From Dehalococcoidia bacterium (lineage in GTDB: Bacteria > Chloroflexota > Dehalococcoidia > SZUA-161 > SpSt-899): a stretch of DNA of 42,837 nt. Below, piece after piece: positions 4,001 through 31,935 of this stretch; the first letter of the stretch is position 1; the number at the start of each line of letters is the position of its first letter. A program made the position numbers and the translations under genes. The notes under the pieces are model-generated. The model ran no database searches, was not told where the DNA came from, and worked only from the letters and a program-made list of their open reading frames with translations. The stretch lies in contig JALPXQ010000002.1 of the NCBI GenBank assembly GCA_023271515.1, forward strand, positions 1 through 42,837. Direction: 5' to 3'.

Positions 4001-4054
4001 AGTTGCACCGTAACTGCTCAGGTTGCCAGGCCTGCCCCCGGCCGCAGGCCCAGG

Positions 4055-4082
4055 GGTTCAAGGTTCAAGGTTCACGGTTGTC
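4055..4082 (+). repeat. Four-unit heptad array GGTTCAA|GGTTCAA|GGTTCAC|GGTTGTC
   Basis: Direct 7-nt periodicity in spacer between nadK and Mut7-C gene. Confidence 0.85.
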
Positions 4083-8496: not shown

Positions 8497-8660
8497 GGTA
8501 ACCGTTCACGGTTGTCGGTTCACAGTTCACAGTTTTTTCAATGAACTATGCAACGATTGAAGCATTTTGGATATTGATTTCAATAGAGGATCCCATGACT
8601 CTCCTTTGCCCTCTGTTTTTTCAACCGTGAACCGATAACTGTAAACCGTGAACGGTTACC
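8497..8660. repeat. Palindromic heptad-repeat element (two inverted period-7 arms)
   Basis: 17-bp perfect inverted repeat GGTAACCGTTCACGGTT (8497-8513) / AACCGTGAACGGTTACC (8644-8660); both arms continue as heptads. Confidence 0.9.
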
Positions 8661-8842
8661 AAATCAGCTACGGTAAGATCATACAAACCTCCTCAGTATT
8701 AGTTAATTCCTTGCCTCCGCTGTCGCTAGGGCTCCTCGTTCACTCTACCCCCAGTTCCGGGGCTCCGTTGACGCCATTGATTCCGATGAAGGCTAAGTAG
8801 AACCAATACGTTATCGTTTTATGCACCGATTAAACGGGTAAA

Positions 8843-11193: not shown

Positions 11194-11440
11194 CACCGCA
11201 GAGAGCGTCGAGAGCGCTGAGATTCTTGATATGTAGGCGTTCAGCGGTCAGCAATCAGTTCTGAGTTTGGAGTTACGGGTTTAGAGTTATGAGGTCCTCG
11301 GAACTCAATACTCTGAACTCACTCGGCTGACGGCTCAAGCTGATGCTTACGTCGTTCATCCGTAAGGTGCTGAACGCTGATGGCTGAACGCTTACCTTGA
11401 CATTAAGATTTCTCTGTGTTCTCTGCGTGCTCGGCGGTTA
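11194..11440. repeat. Nested palindrome: outer period-9 inverted arms, inner period-7 inverted arms
   Basis: Outer CGCAGAGAG|CGTCGAGAG|CGCTGAGAT vs reverse-strand CGCCGAGCA|CGCAGAGAA|CACAGAGAA; inner 11237-11394 runs in one heptad register. Confidence 0.88.
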
Positions 11441-11446
11441 TCGCTA

Positions 11447-16679: not shown

Positions 16680-16988
16680 CCAAAAAAACCTCCGCCCCAA
16701 AGGGGCGGAGGTCAATCCGCGGTGCCACCCTTGTTGACCAACACGCTTACAGCATTGGCCATCTTATTCGGGTACGGCCTTCTAATTTGGCGATACCCTG
16801 GGCTCTGATAACGGTGCCCTCTCCGTCAAAGCCTACTCTCCCTGCGTGTCAGGGTTTCGGTTTGCAGCTCCCAGGTCCATTCTTCCTCTGCCTTAGCGCC
16901 GGGCTCTCACCTTGCCCCGGCTCTCTGTAGCTCGCCTCGAGGGGTACTACTCCTGTTCACAGCCTTTGGTGCGTTATTCAGTTGTGAG
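16680..16988 (-). promoter_or_regulatory. T-box leader (putative tRNA-Trp sensing)
   Basis: Reverse strand has AAGGGTGGCACCGCGG (16717-16732); leader contains GAAUGGACCUGGGAG with plausible UGG specifier. Confidence 0.92.
16682..16712 (-). terminator. Intrinsic terminator of the T-box leader
   Basis: ACCTCCGCCCCTTTGGGGCGGAGGTTTTTTT. Confidence 0.93.
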
Positions 16989-22099: not shown

Positions 22100-22699
22100 A
22101 TGCCAAAGCTTCTGCTTGCCACCAACAATCAGGGAAAGATCCGAGAGTTGGCCTTTCTGATCTCGAGCAAAGCCTGGGAGCTTACCACTCCGGCCCGGGA
22201 AGGTATAGACATCCATGTTCAGGAGACCGGCAAGACATTTGAGGAGAATGCCGCCATCAAGGCATTAGCCTATGCCAAAGCGGCTAACCTGGTTGCTATC
22301 GCCGATGATTCCGGATTGGAGGTTGAGGCGTTGAATGGAGAACCCGGGGTGCTCTCGGCTCGCTACGCCGGTGAAGGGGCCTCGGACAGGGAGAGGGTCG
22401 ATCATCTCCTGGCCAAGCTTGCCGGTGTGCCCTGGGAGAAGCGGTCAGCTCGTTTCAGGTGTGTCATTGCCATAGCTACGCCTGAGGGTGAGGTGGAGCT
22501 TTGCTCGGGCGAGTGCCGGGGATTTATTGCTCTTGAGAGCAGGGGCGAGAATGGCTTTGGATACGACCCTATTTTTTACCTGCCGGAATTCGGCAAGACA
22601 ATGGCCGAACTCAGCTTCGAAGAGAAGAACGGGGTGAGCCACCGGGGAAAGGCAGCAAGGGAAGCGCGGCTGGTACTGGAGCGCTTATCGAGAAAATGA
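22100..22699 (+). CDS. rdgB: XTP/dITP diphosphatase (HAM1 family)
   Basis: LLATNNQGKIRE; ADDSGLEVEALNGEPGVLSARYAGEGASD; GENGFGYDPIFYLPEFGKTMAEL. Confidence 0.95.
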   Translation: MPKLLLATNNQGKIRELAFLISSKAWELTTPAREGIDIHVQETGKTFEENAAIKALAYAKAANLVAIADDSGLEVEALNGEPGVLSARYAGEGASDRERVDHLLAKLAGVPWEKRSARFRCVIAIATPEGEVELCSGECRGFIALESRGENGFGYDPIFYLPEFGKTMAELSFEEKNGVSHRGKAAREARLVLERLSRK

Positions 22700-23667
22700 C
22701 GGGACTCTCCGATAATCATCCCATAAACTACCTGCGCATATCGGTTACCGACCGATGCAATCTGCGCTGTGCCTATTGTATGCCGCTTGAGGGAGTTGCC
22801 CCACTGCCGCATGATGAGATCCTTAGCTACGAAGAGATATCCCTCGTGGCCAGGGCAGCCTCCGAGCTGGGCATCAGCAAGGTGCGGCTTACCGGGGGTG
22901 AGCCGCTGGTGCGGGCGCATTTGAGCAGTCTCATCGGAATGTTAGCTCGGATCGAGGGAATCGACGACCTCTCTCTCACAACAAATGGTGTGCTCTTAAG
23001 TCGCTATGCCCGGGAACTCAAGGCGGCGGGTCTGAAGCGAGTGAATATAAGCCTCGATTCCCTCCAACCGGATAGGTTCAAGCAGATAACTAGAATTGGC
23101 AAACTTGAGGATACGCTCCTGGGGATAGAGGCAGCCCGGGCAGCAGGACTTCACCCGATAAAGATTAACATGGTGGTAATGCGCGGAGTAAACGATGATG
23201 AAATAGCCGATTTCGCTCACCTGACCAGGGAAAATGGATGGCATGTGCGATTTATCGAGTTCATGCCTATCGGGGGACAGAAGCAAGAGGGAAAGTTTGT
23301 GCCTATTTCGGAGATCATGGAGCGCATCGAGCCCCTGGGAGTTCTTAAACCACACTCACTCGATGGGAACGGGCCGGCAAGATATTTTCACTTGCCCCAT
23401 GCGAAGGGTACCATCGGATTTATAAGTCCGGTCAGCGAGCACTTTTGCTTCAAGTGCAACCGTCTGCGGCTCACTGCGGAGGGGAAGCTTCGCCCCTGCC
23501 TTCTTTCTGATGAAGAAATGGATCTCCGCGAGCCACTTCGTCGCGGGGCCTCGGCTGATGAACTGAAACGCTTGATTAAGCAGGCTACCGAAGCCAAGCC
23601 AGAAGGTCACAAACTTGACAGCGGCACCACGGCAAGGAGCAGGTCTATGTGCCAGATCGGGGGCTAA
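22696..23667 (+). CDS. moaA: GTP 3',8-cyclase
   Basis: [29 protein letters not shown]-terminal [19 protein letters not shown] and MCQIGG. Confidence 0.94.
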
Positions 23668-24542: not shown

Positions 24543-25385
24543 ATGAAGGTCGCTTTGACGATCCCGGCAATGAAAGAGATCAGAGGAGAGCTGCCGGAGC
24601 CGGTGGGCTTCGTCCCCACCATGGGCTATCTTCACGAAGGGCATCTGTCCCTGGTTCGTCGGGCGCGGGGGGAAAATAGAAGTGTGGCCGTCAGCATATT
24701 CGTCAATCCTACCCAGTTCGGCCCACAGGAGGATTTCGAGACCTATCCACGTGATACCGAGCGAGACCTGACTTTGCTGCGCGGAGAAGGAACCGATGTT
24801 GTCTTCCTGCCGGAGGCAGAAGAGATGTACCCCGCGGATTTCAATTCATGGATTGTAGTCGAAGGGATGACCGAGATGCTGGAGGGTGCTTCACGCCCCG
24901 GCCACTTCCGGGGAGTCGCTACCATAGTAGCCAAGCTCCTCAATATCGTTCAGCCCAACAGGGCCTACTTCGGACAGAAGGATGCCCAGCAAGCCCTGGT
25001 CATCAAGAAGATGGTGGCCGATCTCAATATGAATCCGCAGATCATAGTCGCTCCTACAGTCCGCGAGCCTGACGGACTGGCGATGAGCAGTCGCAATATC
25101 TATCTCAACCCCGAGGAACGTCAGGCTGCCCTGGTGCTGTGGAAATCCCTTAGCCTGGCACAGCAGCTTCGGTCCGGTGGTGAGAAAAGTGCAGATCGCA
25201 TTCGCCGGCAGATGATTGCCCTTATCGAGGGTGAGCCCAGAGCGCTGATTGATTATGTCAGCATTGCTGACCCCGGGTCCTTGCGGGAACTTGATGAAAT
25301 AGATTCCCCTGCCCTGGTATCCCTGGCGGTTTGGATCGGGAAGACCCGGCTCATCGACAACGTGATCCTGGGGGGTGCGGCTTGA
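24543..25385 (+). CDS. panC: Pantoate-beta-alanine ligase
   Basis: GFVPTMGYLHEGHLSLVRRA; VSIFVNPTQFGPQEDF; YFGQKDAQQ; DGLAMSSRN. Confidence 0.94.
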   Translation: MKVALTIPAMKEIRGELPEPVGFVPTMGYLHEGHLSLVRRARGENRSVAVSIFVNPTQFGPQEDFETYPRDTERDLTLLRGEGTDVVFLPEAEEMYPADFNSWIVVEGMTEMLEGASRPGHFRGVATIVAKLLNIVQPNRAYFGQKDAQQALVIKKMVADLNMNPQIIVAPTVREPDGLAMSSRNIYLNPEERQAALVLWKSLSLAQQLRSGGEKSADRIRRQMIALIEGEPRALIDYVSIADPGSLRELDEIDSPALVSLAVWIGKTRLIDNVILGGAA

Positions 25386-26307: not shown

Positions 26308-26380
26308 GGGGATATAGCTCAATTGGGAGAGCGCGGCGTTCGCATCGCCGAGGTTGGGGGTTCGAGTCCCCCTATCTCCA
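26308..26380 (+). tRNA. tRNA-Ala(CGC)
   Basis: Cloverleaf GGGGATA/TATCTCC acceptor with G3-U70, anticodon loop TTCGCAT, T arm GGGGGTTCGAGTCCCCC. Confidence 0.93.
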
Positions 26381-26546
26381 GACCCGGCACCCACGATAAA
26401 CACTAGGGGTGGGGTGAGAGGAGGTCCCATCGAAGGCGATCTCAGCAGGATGATTTTTGTAAACAGAACGGAATCTCCAAGGTCTCCGGGAATCACTGCT
26501 ACGAAATGCTCCTCGGGAGCGAACGATCGGTAGTCCCACCCCTCCA

Positions 26547-26595
26547 CTGACTGCTGGCTGATTGCTGAAATCTGAGGACTGAGAGTTTACGAGGT
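26547..26595 (+). repeat. Heptad array of the TCAGCnn family (reverse orientation)
   Basis: CTGACTG|CTGGCTG|ATTGCTG|AAATCTG|AGGACTG|AGAGTTT; reverse strand TCAGTCC|TCAGATT|TCAGCAA|TCAGCCA. Confidence 0.7.
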
Positions 26596-26599
26596 CTGG

Positions 26600-27454
26600 T
26601 TGAACGTCTTACCTGACGACCTCTGGCTGGAGGTGAACCGGGGACAAACCGTCTGGGAGGCGCTGCAAAATGAGGACGTGGAGCTCGAGGGGGACTGCGG
26701 CGGACTGGGAAAATGTGGCAAGTGCAAAGTGAGAATCCTCTCGTCCACAGGTCCTCCGTCACAAGAATCAGTGGAACTCCTCGATGAGGACGAACTCAAA
26801 GGGGGCATTCACCTTGCTTGCCGTACCGAGGTCAACGAGGATACGGTGGTCTACTTCGGAGAATCCGATCCCGGTCGGGAATATGTCCAGATTCTGAAGA
26901 CCGGCCATCGGCCGCTTTTTCATTTGAATCCCCTGGTAGATCAGCGGCCTGTCACATTGCTTTCCAGCCATCGGGATGAGGGGTTTTCCGATCTCGACCG
27001 GATCAAACTAGCCAGGGGTCCGGATTATGAACACATGAAGGCCTCGCTACACTGTCTTCGCACGTTACCTCAAATGTTGCAGGAAACCCAGTCAAGGGAT
27101 ATGAACCTCATCATCAAGCAGCTTCTGCAAGTAGGTGGGCTGGATCCAAATGACATCTTCGTGGCGGTTGCCGCGGGGCACACCACCATGCAGCACCTTT
27201 TTCTGAGATTGAATCCGCTGGGGATCGCCGAAGCGCCCTTCGCTCCCGTTTTGACCGATGGACTGACTGTAAAAGCGACGGATGTGGACCTGCGATTACA
27301 TCCGGAGGCCCTGCTTTATATGATACCGGTGAAATCCGGCTATATCGGTGGTGACCTGATCAGCGTCATGCTGGCTTCCGGGGTAGCTGAACAGGGGAAC
27401 CTTATTCCACGACGCTTATCTTTCCCTTTGGTTCCGCTACTATTTCTCCAATGA
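26600..27454 (+). pseudogene. RACo-like 2Fe-2S/ASKHA corrinoid-protein reductive activator, internally deleted and 3' truncated
   Basis: LEGDCGGLGKCGKCKVRI ferredoxin motif; LHCLRTLPQMLQETQSRDM joined to NLIIKQLLQVGGLDPNDIFVAVAAGHTTMQHLFLRLNP; ORF then runs antisense into selD. Confidence 0.7.
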
Positions 27455-28448
27455 TGGCTGCCTCTCTGTGGTCGGTATAGTGCAGCTTCTCAAGCAACAC
27501 TTTCGCCTTCTCCGGGGAAGTGGAGATCAGCAGCCCTCCCGAGGTCTGAGGATCGAAGAGAATGTCCGGTGCCCACTGAGGGACACCAGCGGCAAATTCC
27601 ACCATGGCAGCGCGAAAGGCCTTATTGCGAAATGCCCCACCGGGCACAACTCCCATTCGGGCGAATTCGATGGACCCGGCAAAGATGGGAACCGCGGAGT
27701 AAGAGATCTCTATTCCAATGGAGTTGTTCTGAACCATCTCGCAGGCGTGGCCCAAAAGTCCGAAGCCGGTTACGTCGGTGCAGGCGTGGACCCCCACCTC
27801 CTGCATCAACTGGGAGGCTCGTCTATTTAAAGCAGCCATCTGCTCGGTAACCATGCCTATGGCCTTCTCATCGGCCATGCCTGCCTTAATTGCCGTATTG
27901 ATAATACCCGTGCCCAGTGGCTTGGTAAGTATCAGGCTATCGCCGGGCACTGCCCCCGAATTGAGCACGATCTTGCACGGATGGATTACCCCGGTAACGG
28001 AGAGGCCGTACTTGAGTTCGGGGTCGTCCACGCTATGCCCTCCCACCAGGGTCACCTCCGCCTCGTGGAGCTTATCCATCCCTCCACGCAGAATGTCCCT
28101 CAAAATGGCTAGGTCCATCGATCTGCTGGGGAAACAGACGAGGTTCATTGCCGTGACTGGCTTGCCGCCCATGGCGTACACATCGCCCAGGGCATTGGCG
28201 GCAGCGATGCGGCCGAAGTCGTAGGGATTATCGACGACGGGCGTGAAGAAATCGACGGTCTGGATGATGGCCAGATCGTCGGTTAGCCGGTAGACGCCGG
28301 CATCATCAAGGCTATCGAATCCCACAATCAAGTTGGGATCGTGGGGGATTTCCAGGCCACGCAACGCCTTGTCCAGGTCCCCTGGACTGAGCTTGGCGGC
28401 TCAGCCGGCGCCGCTGACGGATTCGGTTAGACGAAGGACTTTATCCAT
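27402..28448 (-). CDS. selD: Selenide, water dikinase, putative selenoprotein (in-frame UGA at 28401-28403)
   Basis: Reverse strand MDKVLRLTESVSGAG(U)AAKLSPGDLDKALRGLEIPHDPNLIVG...; UGA at the catalytic Cys/Sec position; rest of SelD intact. Confidence 0.92.
28371..28387 (-). promoter_or_regulatory. Candidate bacterial SECIS hairpin
   Basis: GTCCAGG-GGA-CCTGGAC starting 13 nt after UGA; G-rich apical loop 21-23 nt after UGA. Confidence 0.65.
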
Positions 28449-28483
28449 TTTTCTCTCCAAAAGGTCGATAAGCGCCTATTCAG

Positions 28484-28578
28484 CCACAGAGCACACCGAG
28501 ATCACAGGGTTTATAGCGTGTAGCGCATAGCGGGTAGAGGATAGGGAGGCTACACCCTACCTGCTACCCCCTACACGC
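28484..28578. repeat. Period-9 segment followed by palindromic period-7 array
   Basis: CCACAGAGC|ACACCGAGA|TCACAGGGT (28484-28510); GCGTGTA|GCGCATA|GCGGGTA|GAGGATA|GGGAGGC|TACACCC|TACCTGC|TACCCCC|TACACGC (28516-28578). Confidence 0.92.
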
Positions 28579-28887
28579 TTATATCTGATGTATCCCCTGG
28601 ATTTCCAACTTGCTTCGGCCAAGTATTCCCTCAACCTTCAGCTCGTCGGCCCGCTCGAACCGAATACAGATGCCACAGTCCGAACTCAGATGCCGCGGCA
28701 CGGGAATCATCTTCAAAGGCACGCCTTCCGCCTTCAGCAGCTTCTCGGCGCGGAGCGCCCCGCTTATCGAGTGAAAGAGTACCACGCAGCGGCTCCCATA
28801 CTTATTGTTTTCTCTGTCCTTAGAGGCCAATGCCCTTACCCATACTGGCAATATTGCAGACTGCCCTGAGGACGATGTCTGCCTCAT
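28579..28887 (-). CDS. DUF3343-family small protein
   Basis: CVVLFHSISGALRAEKLLKAEGVPLKMIPVPRHLSSDCGICIRF; true start uncertain. Confidence 0.82.
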   Translation of the reverse strand: MRQTSSSGQSAILPVWVRALASKDRENNKYGSRCVVLFHSISGALRAEKLLKAEGVPLKMIPVPRHLSSDCGICIRFERADELKVEGILGRSKLEIQGIHQI

Positions 28888-29983
28888 CCTCGGTAGTGAA
28901 GTAACCGGGACTCACCCGAACTGTTCCCCCGGGGAATGTCCCCAATGTCTTGTGTGCTATGGGTGCGCATTGCAGCCCCGGCCGACACAGAATATCATAC
29001 TCCTCCTCGAGCCGCATTGCCACCTCTGAAGAGGCTATCCCGGCGATATTGAAGGAAAGCACTGCCACCTGTTCTCGTGCATCGCCGCTACCGTAGAGGG
29101 TGACCCCGGGAATCGCTCCAAGCCCCTCGATAAGGAGATACATCACCTTCTCCTCCTTTTCTCGTAGAGCATCTACGCCCTGGGATAAGACGAACTGCAC
29201 CCCCGCCCCCAACCCTGCCAATCCCACCGTGTTAGGCGTACCGCTTTCGTACTTATCGGGCAGGAAATCGGGCTGGTGCTCCGAATCCGACCGGCTGCCG
29301 GTGCCACCATGCATCAAGGGCTCAACTACATCCTCCACACCCTGGCGAATGTAGAGCCCGCCAGTTCCCTGCGGGCCAAAGAGGGATTTGTGCCCGGTGA
29401 ACGCCAGGAGATCGACCTTCATAAAGGATACGTCCAGAGGATAGGCGCCGGCGCTTTGAGCGGCATCGACGCAGAAGAGCACCCCATGCCGGCGGGCAAT
29501 TGCACCTACTTCGATCACCGGAAGTAGGGTCCCCACCACATTGGAGGCATGATTCAGGACAATGAGCCGCGTGTTTGGCTTGATCGCCTTTTCAATTCCG
29601 CCAGGATCGAGAAAACCCTCCTTTGAGCAACTGACCACGGTTAGCTCAACCCCCCTCTCCTGCAGGGCGCGAAGGGGGCGCATCACCGAGTTATGCTCCA
29701 TGCTGCTGGTGATAGCGTGATCGCCCGGGCGTAAGACCCCGTTTATCGCGACATTTAGTGCCTCGGTGGCGTTGCTGGTAAAGATAATGCGCAGCGGGTC
29801 ATCGATATTAAAGAGCCGGGCCAACGACTCCCTGGTCTCATAAACGACGCGCCCAGCCTCGATGGAAAGCCGGTGCCCGGAGCGGCCCGGACTGGCGCCC
29901 ACCTGACGCATGAAGTTATTCATCGCCTGATAGACCACCTCCGGCTTGGGCCAGGAGGTAGCAGCGTTATCGAGGTAGATCAT
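28820..29983 (-). CDS. Class V aminotransferase / cysteine desulfurase family protein
   Basis: MIYLDNAATSWPKP; NHASNVVGTLLPV; DAAQSAG; FTGHKSLFGPQGTGGLYI. Confidence 0.92.
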   Translation of the reverse strand: MIYLDNAATSWPKPEVVYQAMNNFMRQVGASPGRSGHRLSIEAGRVVYETRESLARLFNIDDPLRIIFTSNATEALNVAINGVLRPGDHAITSSMEHNSVMRPLRALQERGVELTVVSCSKEGFLDPGGIEKAIKPNTRLIVLNHASNVVGTLLPVIEVGAIARRHGVLFCVDAAQSAGAYPLDVSFMKVDLLAFTGHKSLFGPQGTGGLYIRQGVEDVVEPLMHGGTGSRSDSEHQPDFLPDKYESGTPNTVGLAGLGAGVQFVLSQGVDALREKEEKVMYLLIEGLGAIPGVTLYGSGDAREQVAVLSFNIAGIASSEVAMRLEEEYDILCRPGLQCAPIAHKTLGTFPGGTVRVSPGYFTTEDEADIVLRAVCNIASMGKGIGL

Positions 29984-30019
29984 AGAGCACCTCCGCCCCC
30001 GCATACCAAGAACTTCAGC

Positions 30020-31439: not shown

Positions 31440-31935
31440 TGTCACCTGATTATCCCTCACCCCCGTATTCGAGAGCGGGCAATGGAGCATGAGATAACAG
31501 CCGTGCCGGCGATGCTGCCAGGGTAACCGGTGAGTATAGTAGCATCGAGACGCCCAATATCCACCCCCAGCTCCAGCGCCGTCGTGGCCACCGCCCCCAG
31601 GAGTTTTCCTTTGAAGAGTTCTCGTTCGATCATACATGTAGATCAGCTCCACCAGCTTGCGGGTTCGGGCAAAGGCGAGACTACGCATGACTTGAGCCGT
31701 AGCGAGCGTAGATGCGCCAGAGACGGCGGACTACGTTAGCTACATGCGCAGCGGCCTGATGGCTGTATAGAGGAAATAGATGACTCGCCTCCAGCGCAGT
31801 CTGAAGGGCGGGTTGCAAGGGCTTTTCTAATTGCTGATGCCGGGCTTCGCGGGGCGGAATATATTCCCGATGGACGATCTGATCGTGATAGAAGGGGAGC
31901 TTCCTGAGGTGATCGAGAAAGGCTGGAGTATCCAT
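31440..31935 (-). pseudogene. YprA-like DEAD/DEAH helicase, ordered fragments
   Basis: MDTPAFLDHLRKLPFYHDQIVHREYIPPREAR...LYSHQAAA | RRLWRIYARYGSS | [19 protein letters not shown] | [42 protein letters not shown] in changing frames. Confidence 0.8.

Follow-up and report, generated by a model that had tools for sequence, protein, structure and literature searches.

Heptanucleotide repeats are unexpectedly common in prokaryotes, and there is no agreement on their cause. They are reported to form the most abundant class of long simple sequence repeats (SSRs) in many prokaryotes – described examples include the STRR of cyanobacteria, GGGNATC in Xanthomonas/Nostoc and TAACTGA in Beggiatoaceae – and polymerase slippage has been proposed to account for them (PMC4692102, PMC4679880). 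Among dispersed repeats, REP/BIME elements are GTAG- and CGTC-tagged and 20–40 bp long (PMC3733652), and Rickettsia palindromic elements (RPEs) make up sequence families of ~150 bp (PMC10969869). A 7-bp spacing is also found in parS of plasmid pSM19035, where 7–10 contiguous 7-bp units, direct and inverted and with the consensus WATCACW, lie beside the par genes (PMC9499535).

The element considered here lies next to selD in a stretch of 42,837 nucleotides from a Dehalococcoidia bacterium, referred to below as the window. It is probably a mosaic of two short dispersed repeats lodged in the spacer between a DUF3343 gene and selD – the main part being a ~66-bp unit that we call B – and a passenger at this site. 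The comparisons draw on the window's own genome (G000; 1.35 Mb in 150 contigs, 58% complete) and on a genus sample of 674 kb of stretches from five congeneric Dehalococcoidia genomes (G000–G004), all of them incomplete MAGs or SAGs. The features at the locus are as follows:

27402..28448, minus strand: selD, encoding selenide, water dikinase, which is a selenoprotein in its own right (Sec16, from an in-frame TGA), with AIRS and AIRS_C matches
28482..28510, plus strand: one end of a nonamer-type dispersed repeat (AGCCACAGAG NN CAC.GAG NN CACAG), adjoining B only on the side that faces selD; copies with both ends are found at L006 and L008
28514..28579, minus strand: copy of element B (~66 bp), made of two inverted heptad arrays (own-genome homologues at 84–86% identity; constant ends in an alignment of ~25 loci from five congeners); minus-strand layout (GTAGNNN)n – GCCTCC – (CTAYNNN)n, heptad core at 28516–28578
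28544..28549, plus strand: element centre GGGAGG, between the two inverted four-heptad arrays
28579..28887, minus strand: DUF3343/Se_S_carrier gene, whose TAA stop abuts the element
28820..30004, minus strand: class-V aminotransferase gene, cysteine-desulfurase-like, upstream and co-directional, in the same selenium cluster

All genes near the element lie on the minus strand, DUF3343 and selD being co-directional, and the element sits between these two genes and upstream of selD, just as the original prediction had placed it. The true selD start is at 28448, with the in-frame TGA at codon 16; the spacer measures ~130 bp, and the DUF3343 stop codon shares its final base with B, of which it is the first. 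A promoter/terminator scan of this spacer on the relevant strand returned no promoter-like or terminator-like site, and an Rfam scan of the window gave no match at the element, its only matches being a T-box and two tRNAs. The T-box leader (RF00230, 109.7 bits) occupies window positions 16698–16969 on the minus strand. In the selenium cluster itself, compared with window positions 28787–28845, G004 (L126:10755–11215) carries ~380 bp of extra coding-looking DNA between the DUF3343 gene and the aminotransferase, which is a candidate for a YedF/DsrE-like gene.

Positions 28516–28578 consist of exactly nine 7-bp units in a single register – GCGTGTA GCGCATA GCGGGTA GAGGATA GGGAGGC TACACCC TACCTGC TACCCCC TACACGC – so that the nine consecutive heptads first read there do run without a slip. 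At lag 7, 33 of 56 comparisons within this core are identical, and across the window no period is strongly enriched other than 7 and its multiple 14. The core had further been described as a perfect palindrome whose right half is the inverse of the left. The inverse relationship stands, the core being the top-scoring 63-bp ungapped palindrome of the window, with 22/31 Watson–Crick pairs, whereas none of 40 Markov randomisations exceeded 20; 'perfect', however, was wrong, because full complementarity is confined to the outermost heptad pair, the inner pairs matching at 4/7, 6/7 and 4/7. The core is better described as two inverted four-heptad arrays flanking GGGAGG, a centre comparable to the G-rich centres of the other inverted heptad elements of the genus. 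Taken as RNA, the minus strand folds at -54.3 kcal/mol (z -4.45); the fold of the element as DNA has z -3.2.

The adjoining CCACAGAGC, ACACCGAGA and TCACAGGGT are members of a real nonamer family, and their proposed kinship with an element at window position 11194 holds up. In the 674 kb of the genus, CACAGAG(N)2CACNGAG occurs ten times at spacing 9 and once at spacing 8, and CACAGAG/CACNGAG was not found at spacing 7 or 10–12, so that the spacing is specific to the family. At selD the nonamers are indeed present on one side only; the copies at L006 and L008 are complete and two-sided. About seven B copies carry the nonamer end on the other side, and several run on into GAAC/GTTCAC heptads: these elements are mosaics. 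The element at 11194–11441 is itself long and nested, with nonamer ends enclosing CTGA-type and GAGT-type heptads, and G002 and G004 have it too, G003 only in part.

The heptad part has homologues of 84–86% identity on several other contigs of G000, where the nonamer part is matched separately. An iterated profile search of the genus sample recovered ~25 other loci with the same ~66-bp unit and constant ends, described by the consensus AGNGTGTAGGGGGTAGTAGGTAGCGTGTAGCCTCCCTACCCCCTACACGCTATGCGCTACACGCTA with a mean column identity of 79%. These loci are unrelated, and share the non-periodic centre of B and likewise the junction AGTCACCTTTCACTCAGCC. In a scan of genomes from 85,000 species, the exact 24-mer CTACACGCTATGCGCTACACGCTA occurs in 11 stretches, all of them in four Chloroflexota/Dehalococcoidia MAGs or SAGs (BS503, BS517, AH-958-J08 and AH-958-E22), and a degenerate B pattern found no match in viral contigs. 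B copies sit at gene boundaries, in either orientation and often between co-directional genes; no copy was seen inside a gene. B is thus a dispersed element and, by the 24-mer scan, specific to one genus. Many families of heptad-unit elements (GTAG-, GGTT-, AGTC-, CTGA-, GAGT- and GTCA-type) have multiplied there, B being one of them.

Differences in the presence of B between congeners can be seen directly. A G003 copy at L139:3317 is absent in G002 and G000, which have ~5 bp at the site compared with ~100 bp, and another at L141:2608 is absent in G000, G001, G002 and G004; as the latter site is empty in four congeners, a recent gain in G003 is the simplest reading there. Heptad content also turns over at orthologous sites. 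The spacer at L139:3934 is occupied by B in G003 and by a CTGAAG-type heptad array in G002, with a short remnant left in G000, and the spacer before the tRNA at 26308 holds a nonamer plus B in G003 and a GTTCAC-GTCACT-TCAGCC array in G000, G002 and G004. Even the unit number changes, the GTCACY part of this last array having five units in G000 and six in G002 and G004. No target-site duplication was recognisable at the compared B sites, and the boundaries of the insertions are not clean; some of the presence/absence cases could therefore reflect local rearrangement or loss instead of insertion. Within a B copy of G003, at L141:2450–2610, sits a small element with the ends GGGGCTGTTCAA...TTGAACAACTCC and TTAG on both sides. 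Compared with G002 and G004, the window is also missing stretches of ~85–1240 bp that appear to be coding, at 31503–31747, 26449–26594 and 27094–27399 (the 1240-bp gap being seen against G004 only); the joints are sharp, some with 3–5 bp junction repeats, and either gene decay or an assembly fault would account for them.

Other heptad types are found in frame within genes. In G003, orthologues of what we take – from recognisable protein sequences – to be RdgB, MoaA and PanC are interrupted in frame by heptad arrays, the matching window positions being 22350–22400 (RdgB), 23260–23310 (MoaA) and 25275–25325 (PanC), compared with L135, L137 and L164. Three heptads make 21 nt, or seven codons, and one such array is translated as ESRVESRES...DSRLQTPDSRLQT. 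MoaA reads MPIG-EVKSQESRVESRESRGGGLQTPDSRLQTKE-FVPIS in G003 and MPIG-GLQTTDYRLQTSDYRLQTTDSRLQTEE-LVPIS in G004, with a third version at the same place in G001 and a stretch of 16 protein letters in G000; PanC has different heptads at the same site in G001 and G003. Different heptads at one site fit either an old insertion with rapidly rewritten units or repeated insertion. The arrays within genes are AGTC-type heptad elements, a type that occurs in unrelated genes and in spacers.

Period-7 arrays are frequent across the genus. With an array taken to be four or more occurrences of one tetramer at a constant spacing, the genus sample contains 108 arrays at period 7, 15 at 14, 6 at 11, 2 at 9 and 0–1 at each of the other periods from 5 to 15, although this density is inflated, many of the scanned contigs having been fetched because of repeat hits, and contigs taken by number yield two period-7 arrays in 69 kb and the window four in 43 kb. 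At the remaining tested periods there was one run, at period 6. Second-order Markov sequences gave no such arrays, and other members of the family, order and class have three period-7 arrays in ~700 kb. The recurring tetramers differ between arrays (AGTC, AACC/GGTT, ACTC, CTAC/GTAG, CTGA, GTGA and others), and in arrays with three variable positions out of seven, these positions are contiguous in 79 of 177, related copies counted, versus 35 expected.

Close inverted array pairs usually flank a G-rich centre such as GGGGAGGGG. As a rule for all arrays, inverted pairing had to be rejected: its excess is modest (17 among 145 neighbouring pairs, against 3.3% when pairs are drawn at random), and neighbouring pairs in the same orientation are similarly enriched, so that inverted pairing is limited to particular families. 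A stop codon in every heptad was rejected as a common purpose as well, given that GACTCTC and CCAGACT contain no stop and that arrays lie in open frames. Of 197 genomes of the class, 15 contain the strict AGTC-heptad pattern; this genus has it in many copies, and so does the distant genus G061. The latter has 31 period-7 arrays in 163 kb (L266–L275), partly in long ORFs; the G-rich-centre architecture does not extend to it, there being one inverted pair only, without the typical centre. Two further repeats in the window are heptad-periodic in part: a 164-bp element at 8498–8661 whose 16-bp ends are inverted (GTAACCGTTCACGGTT), whose arms are heptad-periodic and whose interior varies, with related copies at G000:C75, G004:C59 and G004:C74, and, at 4009–4080, a GGCCTGCCCCCGGCCGCAGGCCCAGGGG palindrome followed by GGTTCAA heptads, of which dozens of copies exist in the five congeners.

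If the feature at selD is such a lodged mosaic, the two repeats would already have been in the spacer in the ancestor shared by three congeneric Dehalococcoidia species. Target bases are replaced and no target duplication is seen; we infer that new copies may arise where a break or stalled fork takes up hairpin-forming heptad DNA, copied in by way of short homologies; slippage by 7 nt would afterwards alter the number of units and let the heptad vocabulary drift. No mobilising enzyme linked to B was found in the five congeners, whose genomes are incomplete. At selD, B would most likely be a passenger, transcribed as a strong intercistronic hairpin, and any effect on the processing or stability of selD mRNA would be incidental.

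A more far-reaching reading, which we put forward tentatively and consider possible at best, would make the selD element one copy of a hitherto undescribed class of heptad repeats recognised not by sequence but by the length and arrangement of its units – 7 bp, each with four fixed and three variable bases, in inverted arrays around a G-rich centre. A copying activity working in a 7-nt register would generate and rewrite the arrays and insert them into spacers and, in frame, into enzyme genes, so that sister species would come to differ in heptad vocabulary at one and the same site. A search of the open literature for six representative heptad or nonamer strings gave no match. A genus with many unrelated and dispersing heptad motifs, partly inverted around G-rich centres, is, in any case, a natural series for testing how such arrays originate and whether 7 nt is a register of polymerase or of repair, turnover at shared sites, in-frame stretches of MoaA and PanC among them, being observable between species ~85–95% identical.

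That B belongs to the REP/BIME type and owes its mobility to a RAYT (Y1) transposase seems rather unlikely. It is a short, dispersed, intergenic palindrome that enters modular mosaics and contains GTAG tetramers, its ~25 loci in 674 kb lie at gene boundaries, and Y1_Tnp proteins are encoded in four of the five congeners (G000–G003); yet at 66 bp it is longer than REPs, its GTAG lies within the paired arms, pairing with CTAC, and no end bears an unpaired GTAG or CGTC foot. No B copy lies within 1.5 kb of the Y1 genes of G000–G003 – incomplete genomes – and none of these genes is flanked by the repeat. Other heptad families of the same genome, moreover, are devoid of GTAG.

An unlikely alternative, too, is that the arrays are purely local heptanucleotide microsatellites, generated by 7-nt slippage in place, with palindromes arising through template switching and no dispersal at all. 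The differing unit number of the orthologous array before the tRNA at 26308 would suit this explanation, as would the reported abundance of heptanucleotide SSRs together with the slippage proposed for them (PMC4692102, PMC4679880). What it leaves unexplained is the sharing, across unrelated loci, of the non-periodic centre (at the column identity given above) and of the junction; furthermore, slippage alone does not make inverted arrays.

The original prediction had suggested that the element could sit in the 5' UTR of selD, and a cis-regulatory hairpin, whether in the leader of selD or in the intercistronic region – an attenuator, an element of mRNA processing or stability, or a selenium-responsive RNA – would accord with the position directly between DUF3343 and selD and with the strong fold. 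Comparison of this spacer in relatives, which the prediction had called for, revealed conservation: in G002 and G004, whose selD is 94–95% identical, B occupies the same site with the same flanks, and it thus persists in every one of the three congeners found to have selD. This is a counterpoint to the passenger reading, as it would also fit a useful role. Nonetheless, B was absent upstream of selD in the other members of the family, order and class that were examined. The selD copy differs between G000 and G002/G004 at 4/66 positions, with the 45-bp flanks on each side identical, and selD itself differs between G000 and G002 at 41/900 positions and at 24/300 third positions; as the divergence of the element falls within the range of these third positions, the element is not visibly constrained. 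Across 17 B copies, compensatory change was seen in 0/14 consensus pairs, and there is no covariation, which together with the third-position-like divergence argues against a selected selD RNA. Neither specificity for selenium genes nor a covarying structure, as expected of a selD regulatory RNA, was thus found. As B is dispersed over ~25 unrelated loci, is absent at selD in other genera and lacks covariation – and as the element has no Rfam match and the spacer no promoter-like site – a selD-specific regulator is very unlikely, and a striking palindrome beside selD need not mean a selenium regulator.

A binding array for a ribbon-helix-helix-like protein, comparable to omega/ParB on pSM19035 parS, is highly improbable, for although the 7-bp spacing, the direct and inverted units and the four fixed positions per unit are reminiscent of one, the tetramer varies between arrays (AGTC, GGTT, GTAG, CTGA, GAGT and others), so that no single protein could read them all, and arrays also lie within coding sequences.

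Taken as a dispersed mosaic, then, the element shares with several described systems some properties and not others. With omega/parS heptads the resemblance is one of spacing only (PMC9499535): unlike the plasmid-borne parS of pSM19035 with its one consensus, WATCACW, the arrays of this genus are chromosomal, comprise many motifs and have no par genes nearby, the neighbours at the present locus being selenium genes. Like REP/BIME elements, B is a short dispersed intergenic palindrome with tens of copies, often between co-directional genes and joined into mosaics; it differs from them in its length of 66 bp, its internal period of 7, the lack of an unpaired end tag and the lack of a flanked RAYT (PMC3733652). 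As a dispersed palindromic repeat of spacers, B works like prokaryotic MITEs (PMC10969869); empty orthologous sites were found for it, with no target-site duplication, and the 16-bp inverted ends belong to the separate element at 8498–8661. The AGTC-type heptad elements are, for their part, like RPEs in occurring both in spacers and in frame in unrelated housekeeping genes (PMC10969869), B having been seen in spacers and in no gene. Unlike RPEs, the heptad elements of the genus show no target-site duplication and have in common the 7-bp unit and the inverted layout, their sequences differing between species at the same site. With heptanucleotide SSRs they share tandem 7-bp units in excess over other periods (108 arrays, versus 0–6 at periods not divisible by 7), a mainly intergenic location, many copies per genome and a variable unit number, B itself being degenerate and inverted; but whereas the known SSRs of this kind draw on a single motif or a few in each genome and are mostly directly oriented, this genus carries many unrelated motifs, some of them inverted around a G-rich centre.
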